A DNA stretch of 11,016 nucleotides, taken from assembly GCA_016926475.1 (NCBI GenBank), contig JAFGON010000006.1:1-11016 (forward strand), read 5' to 3'. This DNA comes from a candidate division WOR-3 bacterium. GTDB lineage: Bacteria; SDB-A. Every line of letters starts with the position of its first letter. The stretch's first letter is position 1. The notes below the pieces were generated by a model. The model had not been told where the DNA came from and searched no databases. It worked only from the letters and a program-made list of their open reading frames with translations. The translations under genes were made by a program, and so were the position numbers. Below, one piece after another: positions 2,774 to 7,663 of this stretch.

Positions 2774-3367
2774 TTAAAAATCTGCCCGAGAATTGAGCTT
2801 GAAGAACAGCTTCAAAAAATCGCTTCTCGATTCTTTTTTACCGGTTTCGATGTAAAGTGAAGTGGCAAAATCTCTTATTTCTTGAGAAAAGTCTTCGGTA
2901 CTGTTGTTAATGTTGACCCCTATTCCAGCAATTAAGGTTTTGCAGATATCTCCATAGATTTTGTTTTCTATAAGTATTCCTGCTATTTTTTTCCCTCCGA
3001 CCAAGACATCATTGGGTTCTTTTATTGAGGTCCTTATGTTGGCTATAGTCTCTATAGTGTTGGCGACCATTTTACCCCAAGTTCTTGGAATTGTCATCAA
3101 GGAATTTGCTTTGATGTGAGGATGCAGTAAAAGGGAAAAGTATAGACCCACCTCGGGAGGGCTTTCCCAGGTATTACCCTTTTGTCCCTTGCCGTAAGTC
3201 TGTCTGTCAGCTATAACGAGATATTCGTTTTCTTCGTCTTCAATTCTGTCGGAGGCGTATGTATTTGTTGAATCAACCGATTCGAGATAAACAATCTTAA
3301 GAGCTCTATCATTCCAATAAAGATCTTCAAATTGGAATTTGTTTAAGAAGATTTCCAAATCTTTCAT
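2774..3367 (-). CDS. birA: Biotin--[carboxyl carrier protein] ligase, short form without HTH
   Basis: A 197-residue cytoplasmic enzyme that activates biotin with ATP and attaches it to the lysine of biotin carrier domains. Visible family motifs are STNTYA (33-38), the biotin/adenylate loop RQTYGKGQKGNTW (55-67), KEPND (116-120), GGKKIAGILIE (124-134, containing the conserved lysine) and GIGVNIN (148-154). The loop is GKGQKGN rather than the E. coli GRGRRGR, and the usual KWPND is KEPND. There is no N-terminal helix-turn-helix, so it should not act as a repressor. The protein stops at NSRADF, where longer BirA proteins continue into a small SH3-like C-terminal domain; that domain seems absent. 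A natural client, the biotin carrier near 10700, is in the same window. No Shine-Dalgarno is visible before the ATG at 3367, but a good promoter sits immediately upstream. First gene of a likely three-gene transcript. Confidence 0.92.
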   Translation of the reverse strand: MKDLEIFLNKFQFEDLYWNDRALKIVYLESVDSTNTYASDRIEDEENEYLVIADRQTYGKGQKGNTWESPPEVGLYFSLLLHPHIKANSLMTIPRTWGKMVANTIETIANIRTSIKEPNDVLVGGKKIAGILIENKIYGDICKTLIAGIGVNINNSTEDFSQEIRDFATSLYIETGKKESRSDFLKLFFKLNSRADF

Positions 3368-3377
3368 TTAGTCAATA

Positions 3378-3406
3378 AATATATTTTAATATGTATAAAA
3401 TGGCAA
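3378..3406 (-). promoter_or_regulatory. Candidate sigma70-type promoter for birA operon
   Basis: Read on the minus strand, TTGCCA (plus 3401-3406) and TATATT (plus 3378-3383) match the -35 and -10 consensus at five of six positions each, with a 17-base spacer. Transcription would begin near 3371, only a few bases before the birA ATG at 3367. That fits the lack of a Shine-Dalgarno there and implies a nearly leaderless message. The -35 box lies inside the first codons of the opposing truncated crtI reading frame. The region is AT-rich, so chance matches are possible. Confidence 0.38.
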
Positions 3407-4422
3407 AAATATTTTTGTGGCGGAGGCTATACCGGAATTATGACCAATTCATAAAAAGCTCAATCAAAAATTCTGACCTGAGAAAACTCCTTATGTGGCA
3501 CACGGTTTTTCTGGGAGGAACACCAAAAAATGTCCCCGCGCTTTATATACTGATGCTACACGTCGATATGAACCTTGGCACTTTTTATCCTGAGGGAGGC
3601 ATGTTCGAAGTTGCGAAAGCTTTCGAAAACTTATCCCTTCAATTAGGCGTAAAATTTGTCTATGGAAAACAAGTAAAAAAAATCTCTGTTGAAAATTTCA
3701 AGGTAAAAGGCGTGGAAATTGAAGGAGAACTCATAAATGCCGATATAGTTGTCTGTAATGCCGATTACCATCATGTCCAGACCGAACTGCTTGAAAAACC
3801 ATTCAGAGATTACGATGAATTTTATTGGGAAAAGAGGGTGATGTCCCCGGGTACTTTTCTCTGCTATCTTGGAATAGAAAAAAAACTAGATCAAATACTT
3901 CACCACAATTATTTTTTCACCGACGACTGGGACGGGCATTTCGACAGTATTTCAAAGAAAAGGTCATGGCCGGAAAAATATTCCTACTACGTTTCTTGCA
4001 GATCCAAATCCGATGCTCTCAACGCCCCTGAAAATTCGGAAAACATAATGCTTCTCGTCCCGCTTGCCCCAGGTCTTCAAGACAACGATGAAACCAGAGA
4101 AGATTTCAAGGAAAAACTGCTCCAAAAATTTGAATTAGACCTGGGAGAAAAGATCAGGGACAAAGTATCCGTGGTCAGGATTTCGACTCACAGAGACCAA
4201 ATAAAAAGGTATAACGCCTACAAGGGCAACTCCTTCGGCCTTGCGAACACACTTTTTCAGACGGGACCTTTGAGGCCGTCCAACAAAAGCAAAAAAATTC
4301 AAAATCTCTATTACACCGGAACTGGAACGATTCCCGGAATCGGCGTACCCCTGACTGTCATTTCAGGTCAAGTGACCGCAGAGAAGATCATTAAAGAAAA
4401 TGCAAAACAAAGAACTCCTTAA
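3391..4422 (+). CDS. crtI: CrtI-type phytoene desaturase lacking N-terminal FAD domain (probable truncated gene)
   Basis: A 343-residue reading frame equivalent to roughly the last two-thirds of CrtI, which desaturates phytoene stepwise to lycopene at the membrane. Complete CrtI proteins have about 490 residues. The match begins at WRRLYRNYDQF (10-20) and includes LGGTPKNVPALY (41-52), FYPEGGM (65-71), ADIVVCNADYHH (117-128), the YNAYKGN region (274-280) and the C-terminal cofactor-binding segment YYTGTGTIPGIGVP (307-320). The first about 150 residues, including the GxGxxG dinucleotide fold that holds FAD, are missing. An in-frame stop at 3376-3378 closes off any upstream extension. Neither ATG at 3391 nor ATG at 3400 has a Shine-Dalgarno. 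The rest has no internal stop and reads well, so any truncation is recent, or this is an assembly join. It overlaps crtB by 23 bases. As it stands it is unlikely to bind FAD or be active. The family call is firm; the gene's status is not. Confidence 0.85.
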   Translation: MYKMAKIFLWRRLYRNYDQFIKSSIKNSDLRKLLMWHTVFLGGTPKNVPALYILMLHVDMNLGTFYPEGGMFEVAKAFENLSLQLGVKFVYGKQVKKISVENFKVKGVEIEGELINADIVVCNADYHHVQTELLEKPFRDYDEFYWEKRVMSPGTFLCYLGIEKKLDQILHHNYFFTDDWDGHFDSISKKRSWPEKYSYYVSCRSKSDALNAPENSENIMLLVPLAPGLQDNDETREDFKEKLLQKFELDLGEKIRDKVSVVRISTHRDQIKRYNAYKGNSFGLANTLFQTGPLRPSNKSKKIQNLYYTGTGTIPGIGVPLTVISGQVTAEKIIKENAKQRTP

Positions 4423-5230
4423 AATTTTCAAGGGAGGCAGCAAGACCTTTTTCAATTCAAGCCTTTTTTTCCCGGAAACTGTTTTAAATGACGTAATAAG
4501 ACTTTACGCTTTTGTCAGAACCGTTGACGATTTCGTGGATTCCGTACCGGTTAAGAAAGAAGAATACTTCAATTTCAAAAAAAAATATTTAAACCATATC
4601 AAGGGTGATGAGACCGACAATGTCGTCATCAAATCTTTCGTGGAGTTGAAAAACCAGAAAAATTTCGATGAATCTTGGGTTGAAGCTTTTTTCAACTCCA
4701 TGGAAATGGATATCCAAGGCAGAATATACTATAAATTCGAAGACATCGAAGATTATGTTTACGGATCAGCAGAGGTAATCGGACTTTTCATGTGTAAAAT
4801 TTTCGCTCTTTCCCACACCTCATACGATTCAGCTAAAATTTTCGGTAAAGCCCTTCAATACATAAATTTCGTCAGAGATGTCGTTGAGGATATTGACCTA
4901 AAAAGGGTCTATTTCCCAGAAAATGAACTCGAAAGATTCGGAATACTTCGCCCTGATTTTTTAACAACAAAATTCGATTTAGAACAATTTTCAAAATTCA
5001 TGAGATTTCAGGTTAAAAGGTGCTTTTATCTTTTGGAAAATGGAGAACGAGGCTTGCCATTGATACCCAGAAGGTTGAGGCTTCCCGTTAAAACTGCTTC
5101 AGACATGTATAAATGGACTTTAAGCGTGATAGATAAACGCCCGGAAGTCGTTCTGGAAAAAAAAATCCGGCCTTCGAGACCTTTTTTGTTCTACAGAGTT
5201 TTCAGCAACATTTTCAACTCAAATTTCTGA
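4400..5230 (+). CDS. crtB: Phytoene synthase
   Basis: A 276-residue squalene/phytoene synthase family enzyme that condenses two geranylgeranyl diphosphates into phytoene, the first committed carotenoid step. Both magnesium-binding aspartate motifs are present: D43-x-x-x-D47 (TVDDFVDS) and D160-x-x-x-D164 (NFVRDVVEDIDLKRVYFP). The N-terminal SKTF (14-17) matches the substrate-binding HSKSF-like motif. Length is normal for bacterial CrtB. The ATG at 4400 lies inside the end of crtI (23-base overlap), and the stop TGA shares its A with the start of the lycopene cyclase, so translation is probably coupled. Squalene or diapophytoene synthase are the main alternatives. Its neighbours, a CrtI-type desaturase and a lycopene cyclase, favour C40 phytoene synthesis. 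No geranylgeranyl diphosphate synthase (crtE) is in the window. Confidence 0.93.
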   Translation: MQNKELLKIFKGGSKTFFNSSLFFPETVLNDVIRLYAFVRTVDDFVDSVPVKKEEYFNFKKKYLNHIKGDETDNVVIKSFVELKNQKNFDESWVEAFFNSMEMDIQGRIYYKFEDIEDYVYGSAEVIGLFMCKIFALSHTSYDSAKIFGKALQYINFVRDVVEDIDLKRVYFPENELERFGILRPDFLTTKFDLEQFSKFMRFQVKRCFYLLENGERGLPLIPRRLRLPVKTASDMYKWTLSVIDKRPEVVLEKKIRPSRPFLFYRVFSNIFNSNF

Positions 5231-5934
5231 TGTATACCTATTCCATTTTACTGGTTTTAACCCTGGCATTCCCTCTGATGTTCAGTTTTGATAGTCGAAT
5301 AAAATACTACAAGAAATTTCACGCTCTTTTCCCGTCAATATTCATAATGGCGGTATTCATGATAGTGTGGGATTACTTCTTCACAAAAGCGGGAATATGG
5401 TCTTTCAACCATAAATACATCACTGGATACCACGTATTCAACCTTCCTACAGAAGAAGTCCTTTTCTTTTTTGTGGTTCCTTTTTCTTGCCTTTTCATAT
5501 ACGAATCTGTTAAATACTTCGTGAAAACCGAAATACCTCGAAAGACATCTACATTAATTTGCATTTTTCCAGCGTTGATTTTTCTTGTCATGTCCTTTGT
5601 ATTCAAAGATCTCACCTACACAATGGTTTGTTCGGCTTTTTTGTCTTTTTTGCTGTTTGTCAACGCTTTGATAATCAAACCTCCGTATATTGTAAAGTTC
5701 TTTCTTGCCTACTTTGTTTCGCTTGTCCCGTTTTTTGTCTTCAACGGAATTCTCACAAGCGGATTGAAAAGTATTGACGAGAATCCGGTAGTGATATATT
5801 CAACATCAGAAATTACTAATTTCAGAATAATCAGCATACCCGTAGAGGATTCTTTTTATCTTTTGTTTATGCTTCTTCTCGCAACAAATTTCTACGAATT
5901 TCTTTTGACGTATAGACGTGTAGAAAAACATTAA
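5230..5934 (+). CDS. crtYcd: Lycopene cyclase, fused CrtYc-CrtYd type membrane protein
   Basis: A 234-residue very hydrophobic protein that would cyclise the ends of lycopene. It holds two repeats of the lycopene cyclase domain found as separate CrtYc and CrtYd subunits in actinobacteria and fused in haloarchaea and some bacteria. The first repeat has NLPTEEVLFFFVVPF (71-85) followed by FIYES. The second has SIPVEDSFYLLFMLLL (202-217) followed by FYEFL. The paired PTEE and PVED acidic motifs are the family signature and are thought to be catalytic. Six or seven membrane segments are evident (about 4-20, 33-50, 77-93, 107-124, 130-148, 155-173, 205-225). Only one product end (YRRVEKH) is charged. 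The start codon overlaps the crtB stop by one base. It is unrelated to the FAD-dependent CrtY/CrtL cyclases. Whether it makes beta-carotene or a monocyclic product cannot be told from sequence. Confidence 0.88.
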   Translation: MYTYSILLVLTLAFPLMFSFDSRIKYYKKFHALFPSIFIMAVFMIVWDYFFTKAGIWSFNHKYITGYHVFNLPTEEVLFFFVVPFSCLFIYESVKYFVKTEIPRKTSTLICIFPALIFLVMSFVFKDLTYTMVCSAFLSFLLFVNALIIKPPYIVKFFLAYFVSLVPFFVFNGILTSGLKSIDENPVVIYSTSEITNFRIISIPVEDSFYLLFMLLLATNFYEFLLTYRRVEKH

Positions 5935-5938
5935 GAAC

Positions 5939-5967
5939 TTGAATAGCTAAAACTCTTGCCTTAAAAT
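5939..5967 (+). promoter_or_regulatory. Candidate promoter before the methylmalonyl-CoA mutase genes
   Basis: In the 55-base gap after the lycopene cyclase, TTGAAT (5939-5944) and TAAAAT (5962-5967) are separated by 17 bases, matching the sigma70 consensus at four and five of six positions. Transcription would start near 5974, with GGAGGG (5981-5986) just before the ATG at 5990. The gap shows no inverted repeat with a T-run, so I see no terminator for the carotenoid genes and read-through is possible. The gap is too short for a cobalamin riboswitch. Confidence 0.35.
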
Positions 5968-5989
5968 ATCGAAAAGAAATGGAGGGACA

Positions 5990-7663
5990 ATGTCTTCAAA
6001 CAGAGAGATAGAAGAAAAACATCAAAAATGGGAAAACAACTTAGTCGACAAAACAATAAAAAAGTTCCCTGAAAGACAAAAAGAATTTTTAAGCGGTTCT
6101 TCCGAAAGCATCGAGAGGCTTTATCTTCCGCCTGAAAATGAAACCGATAAATACGTCAAAGATCTCGGCTTCCCCGGAGAATTTCCTTTCACGAGAGGCA
6201 TTCAACCGACCATGTTCAGAGGGCGTCTCTGGACAATGAGGCAATACGCGGGTTTCGGAACAGCAGAAGAATCCAACAAAAGGTATAAATTTCTTCTCTC
6301 ACAGGGACAGACAGGGCTTTCTATCGCATTCGACCTGCCCACTCAGATAGGCTATGATTCTGACCATCCGATGAGTGAAGGTGAAGTCGGAAAAGTAGGT
6401 GTCGCGATTGACAGCCTGAAAGACATGGAAATTCTTTTTGACGGAATTCCCCTGGACAAAGTTTCAACTTCCATGACCATCAACGCCCCGGCCTCAGTTC
6501 TTTTGGCAATGTACATAGCGGTCGGCGAAAAGCAAGGAGTGTCAAGAGATAAACTTCAGGGCACAATTCAAAACGATATTCTTAAAGAATACGTCGCGAG
6601 GGGAACCTACATCTTCCCTCCGGAACCCTCAATGAGGCTCATCACGAATATTTTCAGATACTGTTCAAAAGAACTGACGAACTTCAACACCATAAGCATA
6701 TCAGGCTACCATATCCGCGAAGCAGGCTCCACAGCAGTTCAGGAAGTCGCGTTCACGCTAGCCAACGGAATTGAATACGTCAAAGCAGCCCTCAAAGCAG
6801 GTTTGGACGTCGACAGTTTCGCGGGAAGACTTTCCTTCTTTTTTAATTCTCACAATGATCTTTTCGAAGAAGTCGCAAAATTCAGGGCGGCGAGAAGGCT
6901 TTGGGCGAAAATAATGAGGGATAAATTTCACGCCAAGCAGAGCAAATCTCTTCTTCTGAGATTTCACACGCAGACCGGAGGTTCAACCCTCACAGCTCAA
7001 CAACCGGACAACAACATAGTCAGGGTCGCAATTCAGACATTGGCGGCTGTCCTTGGAGGAACTCAGAGTCTTCACACCAACTCAAAAGACGAAGCTCTTG
7101 CTCTTCCCACTGAAGAATCCGTGAGAATCGCCCTCCGAACCCAGCAAATAGTCGCGTACGAATCAGGCGTGACCAACACTATCGACCCTCTCGGAGGTTC
7201 ATTTTTCGTAGAAGCATTGACCGATTCAATTGAAAATAAAGCCAAAGAATACATAGATAAGATAGAAGCGCTCGGGGGGATGATATCTGCCATAGAGAAG
7301 GGATACATTCAAAAAGAGATACAGGATTCGGCTTATAAATATCAAAAAGACGTCGAGACGGACCAGAGAGTGGTCGTGGGAGTAAACAAGTTTGCTGTGG
7401 AAGAAGCTCCTCCAAAGGGACTTTTGAGAGTGGACCCAAAATTGAGGGAAATTCAGATCAAAAAGACCAATGAAGTAAAAAAGAACAGGGACAACGCGAA
7501 AGTCCAAAAATCTCTTGAAACCCTTGAAAATGCGGCCAAAAACGAAAATACCGACTTGATGCCTCCTATTGTCGACGCTGTTAAAGAATACGCGACTCTC
7601 GGTGAAATATGCCTCGTCCTCAGGAAAGTTTTTGGTGAATACAATGAAAATATTGTTCTCTAG
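5990..7663 (+). CDS. mcmA: Methylmalonyl-CoA mutase, catalytic (large) subunit
   Basis: A 557-residue TIM-barrel subunit of the B12-dependent mutase that interconverts succinyl-CoA and (R)-methylmalonyl-CoA. It covers the catalytic domain only; the cobalamin domain is encoded by the next gene. Landmarks are [11 protein letters not shown] (65-75), [13 protein letters not shown] (84-96), [19 protein letters not shown] (109-127), PPEPSMR (210-216), [11 protein letters not shown] (236-246) and [18 protein letters not shown] (358-375). By alignment to the Propionibacterium enzyme from memory, Y86, R204 and H241 correspond to active-site Y89, R207 and H244. That supports methylmalonyl-CoA rather than isobutyryl- or 2-hydroxyisobutyryl-CoA as substrate. 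The start at 5990 has GGAGGG four to five bases upstream; spacing is slightly short but no better start exists. The partner subunit begins 12 bases downstream. Confidence 0.96.

Follow-up and report, generated by a model that had tools for sequence, protein, structure and literature searches.

How did the phytoene desaturase gene of a carotenoid (crt) cluster come to lack its beginning, and can it still serve the pathway? The question is raised by the crtI gene of a candidate division WOR-3 bacterium. The window, i.e. the whole stretch of DNA analysed, is an entire contig (C6, 11,016 bases). The genome to which it belongs measures 2.15 Mb, is assembled in 106 contigs and is rated 100% complete. 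The closest genomes compared were G001 and G002 from the same genus and G003 from the same family. G002 is the candidate division WOR-3 MAG Zod_Metabat.185, whose crtI lies on contig JAFGIG010000107.1, and G003 is deposited as Desulfuromonas sp. SDB. Searches of one literature collection found no paper on carotenoids in WOR-3 and nothing relevant on truncated crtI.

Extent of the crtI ORF

The features discussed below are collected in Table 1.

Table 1. Position of the crt genes, of birA and of the proposed junction in the window.
Feature	Position	Strand	Basis
birA-like biotin--protein ligase, short form, intact	2774..3367	-	ORF, family profiles, comparison with G002
birA promoter-like element TTGCCA-17-TATATT, apparently spared by the deletion	3378..3406	-	consensus match only
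Probable crtI remnant, CrtI-type phytoene desaturase, C-terminal ~340 residues	3391..4422	+	ORF, family profiles, alignment with G002
Proposed deletion junction ATGGCAAAAATATTTTT	3400..3416	+	local alignments with G002
crtB phytoene synthase, intact, overlapping the end of the crtI remnant by 23 bases	4400..5230	+	ORF, family match
Fused heterodimer-type (CrtYcd-like) lycopene cyclase, intact	5230..5934	+	ORF, family match

The crtI ORF encodes 343 aa. It matches the family model TIGR02734 from position 150 to 495 of 504 with 270 bits, above the family cut-off of 238.1. The other profiles likewise begin well inside the enzyme: Pfam Amino_oxidase matches only from 160 to 443, and NF058655 (CrtID), the best NCBIfam match, only from 159 to 478, scoring 400 bits where the cut-off is 640. 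The best match among solved structures, the gamma-carotene desaturase PDB 4rep (138 bits), is found only from position 174. Window residues 3-335 align with the full-length CrtI of G002 from residue 154 on (69.7% identical), and the first 154 codons of the G002 gene are without counterpart in the ORF. The second ATG of the ORF, at 3400, is the codon homologous to Met155 of G002 CrtI, and from there the crtI frame reads MAKIF... in the window and MANIL... in G002; the three codons before it (3391-3399) derive from the birA leader, not from crtI. The preliminary description had the ORF beginning about 150 residues into a complete CrtI, and both the family models and the G002 alignment agree, the latter placing the start at about codon 155. 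It was also right that the rest of the protein runs intact to the C-terminus, as the end of the TIGR02734 match indicates, that the region upstream offers no room for the missing part, birA starting at 3367 on the other strand, and that the downstream crtB and lycopene cyclase genes are intact, as judged by length and family match.

Compared with TIGR02734 and with the CrtI of Pantoea (PDB 4dgk), the window has the same C-terminal two thirds and the same gene order, crtI-crtB-cyclase, but lacks the first 154 residues, which include the FAD-binding Rossmann part, and a start region of its own. The missing N-terminal GxGxxG FAD-binding fold was found neither in the ORF, nor in the 23 bases upstream, nor in the rest of the genome. 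By inspection of the sequence, no Shine-Dalgarno is visible ahead of 3391 or of 3400. The C-terminal FAD-contact motif is kept (NLYYTGTGTIPGIGVPLTVISGQVTAEKI, aligned with G002 and G003). What is absent is thus the leader, the Shine-Dalgarno, the start and the N-terminal FAD domain, and everything downstream is intact.

In the alignment with Pantoea CrtI, window residue 3 falls opposite residue 156, so that the lost part corresponds to residues 1 to about 155. In the Pantoea enzyme FAD is the sole redox cofactor, its site includes G8, G10, E31 and G53, and D149, R152 and R148 are near the docked substrate and were proposed as activating residues (PMC3382138). All seven residues fall in the lost part. 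With the FAD-site residues gone and no Shine-Dalgarno in sight, the remnant is very likely without desaturase activity. The pathway is then probably broken at the CrtI step and would stop at phytoene.

Full-length crtI in relatives and the proposed deletion junction

G002 carries a complete crtI of 492 codons, with an ATG at L005 994 preceded by aacaggagccattgg, which contains a GGAG Shine-Dalgarno. This gene occupies the same site as that of the window, with crtB behind it and a divergent birA in front, and is about 69% identical to it over the shared part; unlike the window gene, it is complete. The crtI of G003 is also complete, but at another place. Among the phylum genomes compared, no relative has a truncated form or a natural start at the window position: in both relatives with the gene, the start lies about 154-158 residues earlier.

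Comparison with G002 also locates the break. The birA gene of the window belongs to the same length class as that of G002 (71% identity), and from its start codon outwards the window tracks the G002 birA leader ungapped over 3365-3416. The alignment of 3368-3416 with that leader scores 43, a value attained by a single one of 2000 dinucleotide-shuffled sequences. The promoter-like element in this leader has a G002 counterpart, TTGACA-17-TATATT (L005 870-842). In local alignments of the window DNA with G002 the two homologies overlap at ATGGCAAAAATATTTTT, the birA leader being followed up to 3416 and crtI from codon 155 onward from 3400. G002 has two near-copies of this motif, TTGTCAAAAACATTTTT at 864 in the birA leader and ATGGCAAATATTTT at 1456 at crtI codon 155. 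They are inexact repeats 592 bp apart, with 154 crtI codons preceding the second; the silent sites of G002 are too diverged to give exact breakpoints or the ancestral repeat length.

The simplest event that would account for all these observations is that about 590 bp were lost in a single deletion whose ends fell in two short AT-rich near-repeats, the first in the birA leader and the second at crtI codon 155. Such an event would have joined the birA promoter region to the interior of crtI, and the lost segment would have comprised the crtI leader with its Shine-Dalgarno, the start codon and the 154 codons in which the GxGxxG FAD-binding fold is encoded. The deletion appears to stop just past the birA promoter, sparing it, which would be understandable if birA is needed. 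We thus consider it probable, with some confidence, that what the window carries is a formerly normal crtI beheaded in this way. Among the possibilities raised by the preliminary description, recent decay is the one favoured, since G002 has a complete gene at this site, the breakpoints fall at near-repeats and no N-terminal half is found.

Constraint on the remnant

The remnant contains no stop. When the two genes are compared three ways, G003 serving as outgroup, 26 changes are unique to the remnant and 19 to G002 crtI (p = 0.30); this is similar to what is seen in crtB, the cyclase and the neighbouring genes, with no excess. Changes at invariant columns number 2 of 29 in the window and 0 in G002, too few to mean much. 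Relaxed selection or further decay, as judged by stops and excess amino-acid changes, was thus not detected. Evolving neutrally, a frame of this size and composition would still be open with a probability of 5% once about 0.06-0.08 substitutions per site had accumulated; between the window and G002, saturation is reached at synonymous sites. The absence of decay limits the age of the loss and is expected if it is very recent. A remnant still open and constrained therefore points to a loss that is recent, to one present in a sub-population only or, less likely, to an assembly error; if the gene is dead, the loss would be recent. Constraint of this kind would equally be expected in a part still in use.

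Alternative explanations

The deletion is read from a single metagenome-type assembly, and an artefact of assembly or of strain mixture has to be weighed: most cells would carry a complete crtI, and the contig would show either a false join or an allele with the deletion that is rare among the cells. The assembly is a draft in 106 contigs, the AT-rich junction shows similarity to both parent sequences, and the full constraint on the remaining coding sequence is what an intact gene in the population would produce. However, about 14-17 bases are shared at the junction, and G002 matches them imperfectly. The k-mers usually employed in assembly are longer than this, which makes a false join unlikely. 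The missing piece, moreover, is found on none of the genome's other contigs, although the binning may have left it out. On balance we regard an artefact as unlikely, while giving it some weight. That the C-terminal fragment is itself a working protein, complemented in trans by an N-terminal FAD half or serving another role such as carotenoid binding, would agree with an open and constrained ORF, with the retention of the C-terminal FAD motif TGTGTIPGIGVPL and with the overlap with crtB, through which translation could be coupled to that of crtB. But this form is seen in no relative, neither possible start is preceded by a visible Shine-Dalgarno, and the genome offers no such half. When the N-terminal 154 residues of G002 CrtI were searched against the assembly, no fragment was found, only general FAD motifs. 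A split gene, another of the options first considered, is accordingly disfavoured, and a working fragment of any kind seems highly improbable. We would give just as little credit to a C-terminal part kept by selection without a FAD fold of its own, e.g. because it binds carotenoid as a partner protein or because crtB needs it as a translated leader.

The best match of the N-terminal search (E 2.7e-5) lies within a complete CrtI-like gene of contig C86, and this enzyme could in principle have replaced CrtI, so that the pathway works and crtI was lost without cost. The C86 protein is full length, has an N-terminal FAD motif and reaches 134.9 bits with TIGR02734. This score is nevertheless below the family cut-off, the protein is only 21-24% identical to CrtI, and, being complete alone, it is a poor candidate for a partner in trans as well. 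Its orthologues occur in all three relatives (61-77% identical): in G002 and G003 they coexist with an intact crtI, and in G001, where no crtB is found, the gene lies near the same MATE-like transporter as it does in the genome of the window. As a member of another group, kept in G001 without crtB, C86 is unlikely to be a phytoene desaturase, and its replacing CrtI here is very doubtful. Besides this gene of a different group, the search for a second true crtI in the genome returned only C21, which is not CrtI-like.

On the preferred reading, a deletion reaching into crtI, a known pathway has lost one of its genes in an ordinary and probably recent event, and the breakpoints are clear. It would be a clear illustration of the death of a bacterial pathway gene by a single deletion whose ends lie in short near-repeats, stopping just past the promoter of the neighbour. 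Provided that the loss is real, colourless phytoene would be expected to build up in the organism, or no carotenoid to be made at all. The case is also a warning for annotation: this crtI passes the family cut-off, yet should not be counted as a working desaturase.

The crt locus and its surroundings

In the window (2774-7663) the crt cluster is flanked by birA on one side and by the methylmalonyl-CoA mutase genes on the other, and probably likewise in G002, where the region is on two contigs. In G003 (L057, C48) birA directly adjoins mutB and the crt genes are found at another locus; the cluster has therefore either entered this site or left it. G001, rated 100% complete, gave no match to the birA, mutB or crtB of the window and seems to be without all three genes. 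The match of the window's BirA-like protein to its model covers positions 1-161 of 235 only, and the G002 protein is similarly short; the C-terminal domain of BirA seems to be absent in this genus.

PF01036 and PF15461, which would link the pathway to retinal and rhodopsin, had no match in these genomes, but the controls gave none either, so that the result carries no weight. An Omnitrophota contig (L047, 2171-2329) matches only CrtI residues 9-61, possibly just a general FAD motif. Most of the other CrtI relatives returned by a pattern scan (L034-L046) belong to Patescibacteria (Dojkabacteria, Woesebacteria) and Woesearchaeota, a distribution suggestive of gene exchange among these groups.
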